Part shown: positions 17,898-22,711 of the stretch, piece after piece | Numbering within the stretch: the first letter of the stretch is position 1 | Layout of the letters: every line of letters starts with the position of its first letter | The notes under the pieces: generated by a model | Told to the model about the DNA's origin: nothing | What the model saw: the letters and a program-made list of their open reading frames with translations, nothing else | Database searches by the model: none | Position numbers and translations under genes: made by a program | NCBI GenBank assembly: GCA_040386775.1 | Contig: JAZKEU010000013.1 | Location: 41,701 to 76,004, forward strand | DNA: 34,304 bases | Direction of reading: 5' to 3' | From: Bdellovibrionota bacterium | GTDB lineage: Bacteria > Bdellovibrionota > Bdellovibrionia > Bdellovibrionales > JAEYZS01

Positions 17898-19082
17898 ATG
17901 TTATTTAAAATTTTTTCCGTCTTTTTATTTTTAAGCGCGAGTATTTCCCTTCAGGCAGGAAATTTATGTCCTGCTATTATTGGACCTGCCGCTAAACTTA
18001 CTGTGTTGGCGGCTGAAGTGCTCTGTCACTCATCAGCTTTAGGCGTTCCCCAAAACGTAGAAAATTCTTTGGGAACTGCGTACCGCTTGACTAAAATTTC
18101 GGATAAAAAAATCAAAATAGAAATCAACCCAACTTTTTACGCTAAAAAATCTGAGTTACAAGAAAGTCTTTGGCAGTTTGCTTCTAGGTCGTTAGAAACT
18201 CAGAAAGAATTTATTCAGAAAATGAATATTTGTTTTGATCGCTTTAAGCCATTTCTGATTGGACCAGAAGGTCAAAGTTTGGAAATAGCAGCAACTGAAG
18301 ATAAAAAAGTTCCAGCTATACAAATCAAGATCAGGCCTCAAGAGAGTCGAAGCTCAGTGAAGCAATATAGTGAATCCATACCTTGTGAGACGATACTCCA
18401 TGAAGTTTTGCACGTGTTGGGTTTAGAAGATGAGTATCCAGAGACAAAGGCGGGTTTCAATAAAGACCCAAATGAAAATCGCTATAACTATGTTAGAGAG
18501 AATCCGGAGGTTGTAGGGTTTGATTGTCGTGCCACAGGACCCGAGTATTCAATTATGTATGACGAAGTTTCTGCTCTGGATTCTGTTCTCCCTTTAGAAG
18601 AACATACGACGAAAACTTGTGTTTGTACTCAAAGTGAGAAAGTTTGTGAAAATATCTTCGTAAAAAATAGAAAGAAAATTTCGGGGGGTAGCCAGTGTCC
18701 CAAGGGTTATACGGCTAGAATATCTAGTAAAATTCAAAGATCAAAAATTGATCAGATGAAATTCAGTGGTTACTCTGACGAGGACATAGAATTAAATCTC
18801 AGTATTGAAAGTGAAGAAAAAAAAGAATCTAAATTGCCTAGTTTGTATTATTTAAAAAATGGAAATACCGAATTTGACTTAGTCACCGTTAAAAAACTTA
18901 AACCTCAGAGAAAATCTTTGTTAATGCCTGCACATTTTAGAATGGTCACAAGCCCCAACTGCTTTTTGAAAAATCAAAATTATCTAAAATGCACGGAAGG
19001 TGCTTACAGAAACTCTATGGTTCATGGCAGTTGCTCGGCTGAAGTGAAGAAATGCCAGTCCAATATTGACTGGTTACATTGA
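17898..19082 (+). CDS. Secreted metzincin-like zinc metalloprotease
   Basis: 394 residues with a signal peptide (MLFKIFSVFLFLSASISLQA). The active site reads HEVLHVLGLED: H168, E169 and H172 bind zinc and catalyse, and D178 fits the third ligand of the HExxHxxGxxD type. A probable Met-turn, EYSIMYDEV with Met220, lies about 40 residues further on, as in metzincins. Several cysteines (for example TCVCTQSEKVC) suggest disulfides in the exported protein. It starts two bases after the spoVR stop, so it is almost certainly in the same transcript, an association I do not know from other prkA-yeaH-spoVR loci. The C-terminal 130 residues match no domain I recognise. Substrate unknown; periplasmic or extracellular. 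Confidence 0.82.
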   Translation: MLFKIFSVFLFLSASISLQAGNLCPAIIGPAAKLTVLAAEVLCHSSALGVPQNVENSLGTAYRLTKISDKKIKIEINPTFYAKKSELQESLWQFASRSLETQKEFIQKMNICFDRFKPFLIGPEGQSLEIAATEDKKVPAIQIKIRPQESRSSVKQYSESIPCETILHEVLHVLGLEDEYPETKAGFNKDPNENRYNYVRENPEVVGFDCRATGPEYSIMYDEVSALDSVLPLEEHTTKTCVCTQSEKVCENIFVKNRKKISGGSQCPKGYTARISSKIQRSKIDQMKFSGYSDEDIELNLSIESEEKKESKLPSLYYLKNGNTEFDLVTVKKLKPQRKSLLMPAHFRMVTSPNCFLKNQNYLKCTEGAYRNSMVHGSCSAEVKKCQSNIDWLH

Positions 19083-19271
19083 AATACCCGGCAGTGCTAT
19101 AGTTGATTTAAAACGAATTTAATCTTTTTAACGGCAGTTATCTTCCGAAATCCGGTTAAGGTATGAATTTATTTTAGCCTCAGAGCTTAAAAAGAAAATT
19201 AAAGGAAATTAATTTAAAGTTTTGGTAATATCCTCCCACTTAAACCTGAAGAGTCGGAGAGGGTTATCTGC

Positions 19272-19871
19272 ATGGTCAATTTGGACATCGTCACTATCGA
19301 AGATATGCTCACGCAATCGGTACCTGTTAAAACAAAAGGGTGTATGTTTTGTGAGTTGGACGAGAGTCTGATTGTCGAAGAAACATCGCACTTTTATCTT
19401 ATTAAAGACAAGTTTCCTATTTCCGAAAATCACGTGATGATAATATCTAAAGAGCATTTTGGATGTGTTGGTGAACTGCCGAGTTCATTGTTTGGTCAGA
19501 TACATTCACTGAGAGAAAAATTAGTGAGTTACTTTAAAACTCCTAATTTTATTGGCTATGAACACGGGAGGGCCGGGCATTGTGTAAAATTGAAAGGCTC
19601 GGAAGTGACCTGTCACCACATGCATTTGCACTACCTTCCTCTAGAAGTGAATATCAGAAATATTCTCAAAGGTAATTTCACGGAAAAACCAATTCAATTG
19701 GATGATATAAAAAATCATTATGAAAGATATGGGGAGTATTTGTATTTTGAAGATGTCAATCGACAAGGATTCTTTTATCCGGCCCATCTTCATGTCGAGT
19801 CTCATCTATTGAGAACGTTGGTCTGTGCTTCTGCCAATTTGTCTCATAGGTCAGACTGGGAGAGGTTGTGA
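19272..19871 (+). CDS. HIT (histidine triad) family protein
   Basis: 199 residues. The histidine triad HMHLHYLP (H116, H118, H120) is at the end of a domain that begins with GCMFCEL (C24, C27), the zinc-type N-terminus seen in many HIT hydrolases. HIT enzymes hydrolyse or transfer nucleotidyl groups from phosphoramidates, dinucleotides or ADP-linked compounds. About 75 extra residues follow the triad, with another His-rich stretch (PAHLHVESHLL), longer than a minimal HIT protein. The ATG has GGAGAGGG upstream. The stop overlaps the next start (GTGA), so it is coupled to the aminotransferase-like gene. Substrate unknown. Confidence 0.83.
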   Translation: MVNLDIVTIEDMLTQSVPVKTKGCMFCELDESLIVEETSHFYLIKDKFPISENHVMIISKEHFGCVGELPSSLFGQIHSLREKLVSYFKTPNFIGYEHGRAGHCVKLKGSEVTCHHMHLHYLPLEVNIRNILKGNFTEKPIQLDDIKNHYERYGEYLYFEDVNRQGFFYPAHLHVESHLLRTLVCASANLSHRSDWERL

Positions 19872-21022
19872 TCTATTTTGATAATGCTTCTACTTATCAC
19901 CCGAAAAGCCCAAAAATACCGGAAGCCATATCTCAATATTTAAATCAAATCATTGCCAGCCCTGGTAGGGGTGGACACAGTCACGGTCAAATGGCAGGTC
20001 GGCTCCAAGAGGAAACGAAGGAAGTTCTTCGCGGTCTATTCAATGCCGAAAGAACGGATCAGTTTCATTTTTGTGCAAATGCGACTCATGGATTAAATTT
20101 CATTATTCAGAGTTTAATAGGCCGTGGTGATCATGTTGTTACATCCGCTTTGGAGCACAACTCGGTTTTGCGACCCCTCAAAAAAATGTCCCATGATCGG
20201 CAAGCGGAGATAACCATTGTTCCTGCGAGCTCAGAAGGAAGAGTAGACCCGGAGAATATTATAAGCTCCACACGACCAAACACAAAGCTGGTGGTGTTAA
20301 ACCACGCTTCCAACGTGCTGGGCACAGTTCTGCCGCTCGAAAAAATTCTTAGATTTTGTAAGGATAAAGGCATTTCCACTTTAGTAGATACTTCACAAAC
20401 TGCAGGAAAAATAAAAATTGATCTTCAAAAATTGCCCATGGATTTTATGGTTGCAACTGGTCACAAAGCACTGCGTGGCCCCTCCGGTATCGGTGTTATC
20501 TACACACGAAGAATTGATTTGTTGAGTCCTTTGATCGTTGGCGGAACCGGAGGAAATTCTTTATCCTTATGGCACCCTGAAAATCCCCAGCATATTTTTG
20601 AAGCGGGAACGCCCAACTATTTAGGCATAGCTGCTTTAAAAGCCTCTCTTGAGGATTTTGATATTGAGTATGCAGATTTACCCAAGGAACTTGAAATTAT
20701 AAATTATATTCAGAAAGAACTTAGAAAGATAAACGGTGTTACGTTATACGGCTGTTCCTCTTTGGAAAATAGAATTCCAATTGTGAGTTTTAATATAAAT
20801 GGTTTGAGCTCCCAGAAAGCCCTTGCGATTTATGATGAAACTTATGGAATTATGTTGAGAGCGGGGCTGCACTGCGCTCCCATTGCCCATCAGATGATAG
20901 CGAGTTTACCTCATGGAGCTCTACGATTGAGTTTGGGACATGCAAATACGATGGATGAGGCCGCAACTTTTATTGAATCGACCCAAAACATAGTCGCTGA
21001 AAATCAAAGCGGTACTCTGTAA
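19868..21022 (+). CDS. Aminotransferase class V, cysteine desulfurase-like
   Basis: 384 residues, fold type I PLP enzyme. It begins IYFDNASTYHPKSP as in the cysteine desulfurase branch. K200 in ATGHKALRGPSGIG is the PLP Schiff-base lysine; D174 and Q177 in VDTSQTAG fit cofactor contacts; C336 in RAGLHCAPIAH is the persulfide-forming cysteine, placed as in SufS-like and TIGR01977-type enzymes. It should remove sulfur from cysteine or act as a related C-S lyase. No Fe-S assembly genes are nearby, which argues for a dedicated biosynthetic role. The GTG start overlaps the HIT gene by four bases, and the transporter gene begins on the base after its stop. Confidence 0.9.
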   Translation: MIYFDNASTYHPKSPKIPEAISQYLNQIIASPGRGGHSHGQMAGRLQEETKEVLRGLFNAERTDQFHFCANATHGLNFIIQSLIGRGDHVVTSALEHNSVLRPLKKMSHDRQAEITIVPASSEGRVDPENIISSTRPNTKLVVLNHASNVLGTVLPLEKILRFCKDKGISTLVDTSQTAGKIKIDLQKLPMDFMVATGHKALRGPSGIGVIYTRRIDLLSPLIVGGTGGNSLSLWHPENPQHIFEAGTPNYLGIAALKASLEDFDIEYADLPKELEIINYIQKELRKINGVTLYGCSSLENRIPIVSFNINGLSSQKALAIYDETYGIMLRAGLHCAPIAHQMIASLPHGALRLSLGHANTMDEAATFIESTQNIVAENQSGTL

Positions 21023-21907
21023 GTGGATATTGCTGTCGGTATCACCCTTTTGTATGCTTTTATCTCCGCCAGTTTCAGGGGAGTCATATCCACCATCGAT
21101 AGATATCAATTTGGGGTCAGTCGCCAATCTGTAACTTTCACGAACATATACAATAATGTATTGGCTTTTATCATTTCCTTAGTCGTATGCATTTTTTTTG
21201 GAGATGTTCATCGGGTTCTCCCTTTTCTTGGCAATATTAAAATTATACTGTTTAGTTTTATATTGCAATTGGCCGCTCATGCTTTTTCCTACGCTTTTAA
21301 GCATATGAAAATTCCCGCCGTAATTATTTTTTCGAAGATGGCAGATTTATTTATTCCTATTGGAATATTTTTATTTTCTTCGATTTGGAATTGGAGCGAC
21401 TTTTTATTTTCGGTAAGTACTTTTCTAGTGTGTGTGCCTATTTTTATTTTTCAAAATAAAAAAGGTCATATTCATTTATTTTCTGCTTTGGCGGTGCTTT
21501 TTGTATTGGTGATCCAAGGTTCTTTTTCTCCTTGGTTCATGTCGGGAGTTTCATCTGATTCTTGGATTCATTACACCGTCGCGTTGATTTTTTGGCGTCT
21601 TGTTTTTAGTTTATTGGGCGTGATTAATAATTCGAAAGAGTTCTCTATGCATCCCACTTGTTCTAAAAAATTTAGAAAGTATTTGTCTATAATGTTGGTG
21701 CGTTCAGTTTTAACTCTTGGAGCTCAGGCCTTTTTAGTTTTATCATTGAGTCAGGAAAGACCAGTGCTGGCCTGGCCCGTACTGAATGCGACGGGCCTGA
21801 TATCCGTAGTTTTTTCTTCTTTAATTCTACGTGAGCATGCTGGAAAATATGAGATTCTGGCGGTGATACTTATTGCTATACTGGGATTGTTAAAAGCTTT
21901 GGTTTAA
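21023..21907 (+). CDS. EamA/DMT-like multi-pass transporter
   Basis: 294 residues, almost entirely hydrophobic with about ten predicted helices arranged as two halves of five, the layout of the drug/metabolite transporter superfamily. Helix-ending features such as KMADLFIPIGIFLFSS in the first half and LNATGLISVVFSSLILREHAGKYEILAVILIAILG at the end (second EamA repeat region; the REH-x-x-K-E element is typical) support this. It starts at GTG directly after the aminotransferase stop. The order suggests import of a precursor or export of the product of the HIT/PLP enzymes. Specific substrate not predictable. Confidence 0.75.
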   Translation: MDIAVGITLLYAFISASFRGVISTIDRYQFGVSRQSVTFTNIYNNVLAFIISLVVCIFFGDVHRVLPFLGNIKIILFSFILQLAAHAFSYAFKHMKIPAVIIFSKMADLFIPIGIFLFSSIWNWSDFLFSVSTFLVCVPIFIFQNKKGHIHLFSALAVLFVLVIQGSFSPWFMSGVSSDSWIHYTVALIFWRLVFSLLGVINNSKEFSMHPTCSKKFRKYLSIMLVRSVLTLGAQAFLVLSLSQERPVLAWPVLNATGLISVVFSSLILREHAGKYEILAVILIAILGLLKALV

Positions 21908-21962
21908 ATAGCCAAGTACATTAAATAAATTCGTGCGAAAAAATTATTTGAGGAGTAGTAGA

Positions 21963-22265
21963 GTGCAAAAATTAGTTCGAGATCTAATTCCAGATTTGAT
22001 CAAAAAAACAGATGGAGAAGCCAGCAAACATAAAATTAGAATTGCTTCTAATGCGGAGATGCCCGATTTATTAAAAATGAAGCTGGAAGAAGAACTCAAA
22101 GAATATTTAGAATCGAATTCCGTAGAAGAATTAGCAGATTTAGTTGAGGTCGTGAGGGCCATTTTAGATCATAATGGTATACATTGGGATGATTTTGAAA
22201 AAACAAGGCTCGAAAAAGCAAAGGCTCGAGGAATTTTTAAAAAGAAATTTGTTTTGTATTTGTAA
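21963..22265 (+). CDS. MazG-like nucleoside triphosphate pyrophosphohydrolase
   Basis: About 100 residues from GTG 21963, which has GAGGAG seven bases upstream; the longer frame start at 21933 would place the ribosome site inside the gene. The pattern QKLVRDLIPDLI, then KLEEELKEYLE, then VEELADLVEVVRAIL, then RLEKAKARGIFKKKFVLYL is that of the house-cleaning phosphoribosyl-ATP/NTP pyrophosphohydrolase group (COG4997). The EExxE and ExxD metal-binding residues of the MazG fold are present (LEEELKE, ELAD). It hydrolyses a nucleoside triphosphate to monophosphate and PPi. It lies 55 bases downstream of the transporter, possibly in the same operon. Confidence 0.82.
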   Translation: MQKLVRDLIPDLIKKTDGEASKHKIRIASNAEMPDLLKMKLEEELKEYLESNSVEELADLVEVVRAILDHNGIHWDDFEKTRLEKAKARGIFKKKFVLYL

Positions 22266-22278
22266 AGAAATGCCAGCC

Positions 22279-22299
22279 GAGTTGGGTTGGATCCAACTC
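22279..22299. other. Stem-loop between convergent genes
   Basis: GAGTTGG (22279-22285) pairs with CCAACTC (22293-22299) around a 7-base loop; the inner part GTTGGATCCAAC is also palindromic. It lies between the convergent MazG-like and GcvH-like genes and may help end transcription, but no T run follows on either strand. Confidence 0.4.
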
Positions 22300-22354
22300 T
22301 AGAGGCTTGAACCCCCGTAGAGGATTCAATAAATTTATTATAATTAGGACAGAG

Positions 22355-22711
22355 TTACTCGTCTGTCTCTTTATCAAAGAGCGCATCCAAGCTGGCCTCA
22401 TCCGTAGCTTCGATTTTATATAACCAACTGTCATAGGGATCATCAAACAACAGAGAATTGTCTTCCATCACTTCGGCATTCACTTCGATCACGCTACCGT
22501 TGACAGGTGAATAAAGTTTGTAGGTTCCATCTGGAGTTTCGATTTCGCCGCACACATCGTCTGCCTCGACCTCTTCGCCTTCGGAGGGAAGATTCATTTC
22601 TTGAATTTTATCGATTTCACCTAAAGCTTCCTCAGTCATACCAACGAGTACGGCATTATCCTCTATCATAATCCAATGATGTCCCATGTATGTGATGTGT
22701 TCGTTTTTCAT
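22355..22711 (-). CDS. GcvH-like protein lacking the lipoyl lysine
   Basis: 118 residues with the fold pattern of glycine cleavage H protein: HHWIMIEDNAVLVGMTEEALGEID, then MNLPSEGEEVEADD, then LYSPVNGSVIEVN and DDPYDSWLYKIEA. In true GcvH the segment is E-S-V-K-A, and the Lys carries lipoate. Here the matching residues are E58-T-P-D61-G, so the attachment lysine is replaced by Asp; K65 lies four positions later and is not in the usual turn. It therefore probably does not serve glycine cleavage in the normal way, and no gcvT or gcvP gene is near. It may be a degenerate or moonlighting carrier-like protein. Good AGGAG site six bases before ATG. The C-terminus is very acidic. Confidence 0.85.
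   Translation of the reverse strand: MKNEHITYMGHHWIMIEDNAVLVGMTEEALGEIDKIQEMNLPSEGEEVEADDVCGEIETPDGTYKLYSPVNGSVIEVNAEVMEDNSLLFDDPYDSWLYKIEATDEASLDALFDKETDE

Follow-up and report, generated by a model that had tools for sequence, protein, structure and literature searches.

The closest functional precedent for the locus described here is thmA-C of Photorhabdus, a three-gene cassette found in changing contexts and linked to the S-nucleoside antibiotic 4'-thiothymidine, which includes a nucleoside triphosphatase (NTPase) as its resistance gene (PMC12691670). Proteins of the HIT superfamily are tied to a nucleotide antibiotic in microcin C-like clusters, where a transporter lies close by: MccH-clade HIT hydrolases, defined by replacement of the third histidine of the catalytic triad with lysine (HxHxK), confer resistance to microcin C by cleaving a phosphoramide bond (PMC7157772). 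HINT1 converts (deoxy)nucleoside monophosphorothioates, (d)NMPS, to (d)NMP and H2S, the hydrolytic direction, and so provides an example of HIT chemistry at a sulfur-bearing nucleotide (PMC8775712). Published gene lists for ascamycin and nucleocidin include sulfotransferase or 3'-phosphoadenosine-5'-phosphosulfate (PAPS) genes and neither a HIT protein nor a desulfurase. Here we analyzed a 34,304-nucleotide stretch of a Bdellovibrionota genome (contig JAZKEU010000013.1, positions 41,701 to 76,004; hereafter "the window"), which contains a four-gene cassette encoding a HIT protein, a class V pyridoxal phosphate (PLP) enzyme, a drug/metabolite transporter (DMT) protein, and a MazG-like protein:

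19272..19871, + strand: HIT protein gene (199 amino acids [aa]), CWF19/CwfJ-like HIT subfamily with C-terminal extension
19868..21022, + strand: class V PLP enzyme gene (384 aa), SufS-type cysteine desulfurase clade, TIGR01977-like
21023..21907, + strand: DMT (EamA-type) membrane protein gene (294 aa), ten-helix DMT fold
21963..22265, + strand: MazG-like all-alpha NTP pyrophosphohydrolase gene; open reading frame (ORF) opens at 21933, conserved start at 21963

We propose, with a probability of roughly 0.4, that this cassette is a mobile biosynthetic set for a small, exported, sulfur-bearing metabolite derived from a nucleotide. Its four genes are packed closely into a single unit. The HIT stop and PLP start overlap by four bases (GTGA, 19868-19871), and the PLP stop codon (TAA, 21020-21022) is followed with zero spacing by the GTG start of the transporter gene at 21023. 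These four ORFs and junctions, first listed in an initial annotation of the window, were borne out by the sequence. The MazG-like ORF has its first start, also GTG, at 21933, 25 bases after the transporter gene; the GTG at 21963 (VQKLVRD...) aligns with the starts of relatives (compare MKKLVRD...) and is probably the true start, which matches the 55-base gap given in that annotation. Promoter and terminator scans of the cassette gave signal no higher than in shuffled sequence. No described pathway with the HIT plus desulfurase gene combination was found in the literature searched.

The PLP enzyme matched Pfam Aminotran_5 at E = 1.7e-80. Its best NCBIfam model was TIGR01977 ("cysteine desulfurase family"), at 363.7 bits just under the cut-off of 377; by this score it is related to TIGR01977 and not filed under it. 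The Schiff-base Lys200 (TGHK) and the catalytic Cys336 (RAGLHCAPIAH) are invariant in an alignment of the SufS-type cassette homologues and conform to the motifs of that type (Lys in GHK, Cys in RxGxxCAPxxH). The enzyme retains both catalytic residues of a cysteine desulfurase, its predicted activity. Phylogenetic analysis placed the window protein, at moderate support, with PLP proteins of related cassettes from Bacilli and a Vibrio nigripulchritudo protein, all within the SufS-type clade and apart from the selenium-linked SclA-type proteins; the PLP proteins encoded with HIT relatives in Streptomyces and Rhizobium grouped with IscS/NifS (100/100). Since two unrelated desulfurase types occur with one HIT subfamily, the HIT-desulfurase pairing arose more than once, by independent recruitment, and this repetition points to desulfurase activity as the function needed. 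Among described class V enzymes, those of the SclA and TIGR01977 groups share the SufS-type clade and the catalytic Lys and Cys with the window protein, but SclA adjoins selD and yedF, and identity with SclA was ruled out by score (289.5 bits against a cut-off of 525) and by the lack of a SelD match in the genome. The phosphorothioation desulfurases DndA and SspA are similar at a distance (156 to 165 bits); no further Dnd/Ssp component stands beside the window PLP gene, whose partners are instead the HIT, DMT, and MazG-like genes. The V. nigripulchritudo relative lies on a plasmid (L043, 117-11559) without a HIT protein, among genes for two orotidine-phosphate decarboxylase-like proteins, a dTMP-kinase-like protein, an adenylation/acyl carrier protein pair, and a MATE exporter.

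The PLP enzyme could in principle be an additional desulfurase with unrelated neighbors that serves Fe-S assembly, tRNA thiolation, or selenium metabolism, given that class V desulfurases are multifunctional and that relatives of its clade are SclA-type and selenium linked. The same genome, however, encodes SufS beside SufD in a suf operon away from the cassette, an IscS-type protein beside MnmA (mnmA), and a third NifS-like protein (SufS, SufD, and MnmA were named by reading the sequences rather than by family scan), and SelD had no match in this 98% complete genome. The separate SufS and IscS and the missing SelD indicate that the PLP enzyme is not an Fe-S, tRNA, or selenium enzyme, and we rejected both the Fe-S or tRNA role, for which separate paralogues exist, and the selenium role. 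Its neighbors are the HIT, DMT, and MazG-like genes rather than SufBCD, SufE/U, or IscU; they are co-conserved across phyla, and the entire unit is a recent insert. Housekeeping is therefore largely excluded and, in our estimate, very improbable. The initial annotation had likewise noted that Fe-S scaffold and thiamine genes were missing, and none was seen among the window proteins examined; its view that the enzyme serves something other than ordinary Fe-S assembly agrees with these results.

The HIT protein scored 26.9 bits on Pfam PF01230 (cut-off, 21.5) and has the intact superfamily triad HxHxHxx as H116-M-H118-L-H120-Y-L (HMHLHYL). Further motifs are an N-terminal CxFC, EHG at residues 97 to 99, and Cys114, two residues before the triad. 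A cysteine no more than four residues ahead of the triad was found in 11/11 members of the HIT subfamily and in 0/15 other HIT proteins. Positions 9 to 188 of the subfamily profile aligned with residues 328 to 512 of CWF19L1 (E = 6.8e-14), so that both the HIT domain and the C-terminal extension are homologous to the CwfJ/CWF19 type. CWF19-like protein 1 was the best solved-structure match, over nearly the full subfamily length; it is eukaryotic and known from spliceosome structures, whereas the bacterial HIT forms stand in small-molecule-like operons. MccH-type microcin C immunity was ruled out, as the third triad position is His, not Lys, in the window protein and in all aligned members with this region intact. 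The window HIT gene also differs from the MccH clusters in having a desulfurase gene, and no MccB-like adenylating gene, adjacent to it.

To determine how widely the gene set recurs, we examined related loci in other bacteria. The 37-kb Lactococcus lactis plasmid pUC06C carries adjacent PLP, HIT, and DMT genes in that order, with a 4-base overlap and zero spacing (identities to the window proteins: PLP, 36%; HIT, 27%; DMT, 32%), and a second Lactococcus plasmid holds a decayed copy. Lactobacillus bombicola has overlapping PLP-HIT-MazG-DMT genes broken by several stops, and another Lactobacillales genome (L097) has PLP-HIT-DMT with an apparent frameshift that splits the PLP ORF. In two genomes assigned from flanking genes as Enterococcaceae-like (L098 and L099), a PLP-HIT-MazG run precedes genes for two glycosyltransferases, a HAD hydrolase, and a phosphotransferase system EIIC protein, with a divergent Rgg-type regulator next to the run and the same flanking core genes in both. 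Two Streptomyces plasmids (Mg1 and NBC_01278) encode a dCTP-deaminase-like (DCD-like) protein, HIT, an uncharacterized protein, and a desulfurase of the NifS type; a MazG-like gene and one for an exo/endonuclease-methyltransferase protein lie close by. On Rhizobium leguminosarum pRL1, the PLP and HIT genes overlap by 4 bases within an unannotated, nucleoside-type cluster (L104, 642-11365) of phosphoribosyl pyrophosphate (PRPP)-synthase-like, TrpD-like (phosphoribosyltransferase-like), Tmk-like (dTMP-kinase-like), and PfkB genes, together with inositol-phosphate-synthase-like, RidA, methyltransferase, and dioxygenase-like genes.

By our tally over the recovered loci, a desulfurase gene or remnant lies beside HIT in 10/13 HIT subfamily loci, the exceptions being Amphibacillus cookii, Parabacteroides, and one order-level relative (G035). 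The subfamily is rare in the partial genome samples searched, where one order yielded 4 strong matches among 396 genomes, one family yielded 2/105, and samples of 398 and 389 genomes yielded none besides the centre genome; an initial scan of genome contigs that used the single HIT protein as query gave no match. From these comparisons, HIT and desulfurase emerge as a stable core, usually translationally coupled, with the MazG-like gene and the DMT transporter as frequent partners, and the set appears as a small island or on plasmids, that is, as a mobile unit. The loci that tie the MazG-like gene to the cassette are those of L. bombicola, the Enterococcaceae-like genomes, and Streptomyces. That the four genes are chance neighbors on one insert without joint function might be argued from the lineage-specific nature of the insert and from the apparently unrelated metalloprotease-like ORF that it also carries. 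Against this, neighboring genes of these families recur in Bacillota and, for part of the set, in Actinomycetota and Alphaproteobacteria, in varied orders and mostly with overlapping ends; the adjacency of all three families (PLP, HIT, and DMT) on the Lactococcus plasmid is more than chance. We regard coincidence as already refuted for HIT plus PLP and as extremely unlikely for the cassette. Recurrence across phyla in mobile form also answers the initial annotation's concern that the neighborhood might be found only here. A further HIT subfamily member lies on a Parabacteroides distasonis plasmid (L105, 6355-11641), flanked on one side by a 539-aa ThyX-like/AAA-ATPase pair and on the other by a PRA-PH (MazG-like) protein, whose gene is followed by one for dihydrofolate reductase.

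The cassette lies within a larger insert:

17898..22354, no strand assigned: lineage-specific insert between SpoVR (ends 17895) and a GcvH-like gene (22355-22711); relatives lack the insert

The insert comprises a metalloprotease-like ORF (17898-19082) and the cassette. Three relatives, two of the same family and one of the same order, have an empty site in which SpoVR is followed by the GcvH-like gene; one of the three has a single unrelated ORF in between. Across 98 order-level relatives, no HIT homologue scored above 45 bits (the best, at 28%, was a HIT-methyltransferase fusion in G035), and no transporter homologue scored above about 19 bits. A 291-genome sample of the phylum yielded no further HIT subfamily member beyond this distant fusion. 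The empty sites and the absence of homologues in relatives indicate that the cassette was acquired by horizontal transfer as a recent insert. A phage origin was rejected, as neither the window HIT nor the Streptomyces HIT had a match in phage records, and three viral-contig scans gave no relative. The G035 protein (L006, 532-2067) fuses a HIT domain of the subfamily with a methyltransferase-like C-terminal half. The metalloprotease-like ORF (394 aa) has no Pfam match, a signal-peptide-like start, and the zinc-metalloprotease-like motif HEVLHVLGLEDEY.

The labels "EamA" and "MazG" of the initial annotation hold for the two remaining proteins, although neither window protein itself matched the corresponding Pfam family (the transporter did not reach the EamA cut-off). 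The Lactococcus relative of the transporter scored 28.1 on Pfam EamA against a cut-off of 28.2. An AlphaFold2 model of the transporter family (predicted local distance difference test score [pLDDT], 78.5) has a ten-helix DMT fold, with LicB, SLC35B1, CST, and YddG (entry 5i20) as top Foldseek matches and the LicB and SLC35 structures as the best; the family motif is RGxISxIDRYQxG. The MazG-like protein keeps the metal-binding motif EExxE..EExxD, with E53, E54, E57, E66, and D69 conserved in the alignment, and its Streptomyces relative exceeds the PRA-PH cut-off.

In the biosynthetic scheme that we propose, every reaction, every substrate, and the direction of transport is a prediction from gene content, catalytic residues, conservation, coupling, and horizontal transfer. 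The PLP enzyme would draw sulfur from cysteine onto Cys336 as a persulfide. The HIT protein would bind a nucleotide, form a nucleotidyl-His118 intermediate, and transfer or cleave the nucleotidyl group, working with the desulfurase to place sulfur on, or release, the nucleotide part; Cys114, next to the triad, is a possible sulfur-relay residue. The MazG-like enzyme would convert nucleoside triphosphates to monophosphates, either as supplier or as self-protection against an activated triphosphate of the product, and the DMT protein would carry the product across the membrane. The initial annotation had suggested the making or unmaking of a "sulfur-containing nucleotide-linked small molecule" that crosses the membrane. 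The nucleotide link gains from the occurrence of the HIT subfamily with a second desulfurase type among nucleotide genes in Streptomyces and Rhizobium (dCTP-deaminase-like, PRPP-synthase-like, phosphoribosyltransferase-like, and dTMP-kinase-like), and the transport part is weakened in that a transporter does not always accompany the pair.

Several points weigh against a biosynthetic function. The cassette has no gene to build or rearrange a nucleoside (no kinase, phosphoribosyltransferase, radical SAM enzyme, or ATP-PPase), so one or two steps would have to suffice to modify a common nucleotide. Hydrolysis is the usual activity of HIT enzymes and is equally consistent with detoxification. In Streptomyces and Rhizobium no DMT gene was identified at the locus, and one gene apiece is missing from the Enterococcaceae-like and Lactococcus versions of the set. 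In the tree, the window PLP enzyme joins the Bacilli cassette enzymes with only moderate support (80/84), and the predicted structure of the HIT protein (pLDDT, 45.6) is too poor to place Cys114 relative to the active site. The activities, substrate, and product are all predicted. The thmA-C set also differs in content, as it combines a radical SAM enzyme with a nucleoside kinase (PMC12691670); the window cassette contains neither and consists of the HIT, PLP (desulfurase), DMT, and MazG-like genes only. Sulfamate nucleosides of the ascamycin/nucleocidin type were rejected as products, with no PAPS/sulfotransferase or AcmN-like genes among the window proteins examined.

The main rival is a cassette for resistance to, or detoxification of, such a compound, in which HIT would cleave a toxic nucleotidyl conjugate, the MazG-like enzyme would destroy the activated triphosphate, the PLP enzyme would remove sulfur or cleave a C-S bond, and the DMT protein would export. 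MccH-clade hydrolases act in this manner against microcin C (PMC7157772), and the plasmid location, sporadic distribution, and frequent decay of the cassette fit a resistance function, as does the persistence of the transporter alone in many genomes. But a cysteine desulfurase with an intact catalytic Cys has no obvious role in detoxification, the triad is HxHxH rather than HxHxK, the Rhizobium pair lies within a biosynthetic-type cluster, and the Enterococcaceae-like pair is followed by glycosyltransferases and stands beside an Rgg-type regulator. We consider a resistance function somewhat unlikely.

As a special case of the proposed biosynthesis, HIT and desulfurase together might constitute a new sulfur-transfer enzyme that makes a secreted 5'-phosphorothioate-type or other thio-nucleotide metabolite, a suggestion to which we give low odds. 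In its nucleoside 5'-phosphorothioate form, which we hold equally doubtful, persulfide or sulfide from the desulfurase would intercept the nucleotidyl-His intermediate to yield NMPS. HINT1 runs the hydrolytic direction of this reaction (PMC8775712), the HIT subfamily shares a conserved Cys adjacent to the triad, and the HIT-PLP pair is translationally coupled. Conversely, P-S bonds are almost absent among known natural products (PMC6429109), the scheme names no energy source for the nucleotidyl-His intermediate, and Cys114 as acceptor has no structural support.

If the cassette does direct the synthesis of such a metabolite, sulfur-containing nucleotide metabolites would gain a compact, mobile gene set in which a HIT protein is partner in a sulfur pathway. 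A P-S or thio-nucleotide bond could then be formed in a new way, in a product used as a mobile chemical weapon, a signal, or a shared good. Its hosts, which include Bdellovibrio-like predators and dairy lactococci, are organisms not mined for such compounds, and we expect that small cassettes are unlikely to be spotted by tools built on large biosynthetic genes. With a single HIT subfamily linked to two desulfurase types that are unrelated, a HIT role in sulfur chemistry is open to direct test.

Many genomes of bee-gut Lactobacillus and of other Bacilli (L046-L067) carry the cassette-type DMT gene alone, without a HIT partner. Only 2/16 transporter-bearing genomes tested had the HIT subfamily, with both HIT copies broken by stops, and in A. 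cookii the transporter is intact and the HIT gene broken. Genomes with the transporter only could belong to cheaters that import a shared product or are merely immune to it. Some, such as those of L. kimbladii and L. kullabergensis, carry two copies of the DMT transporter.

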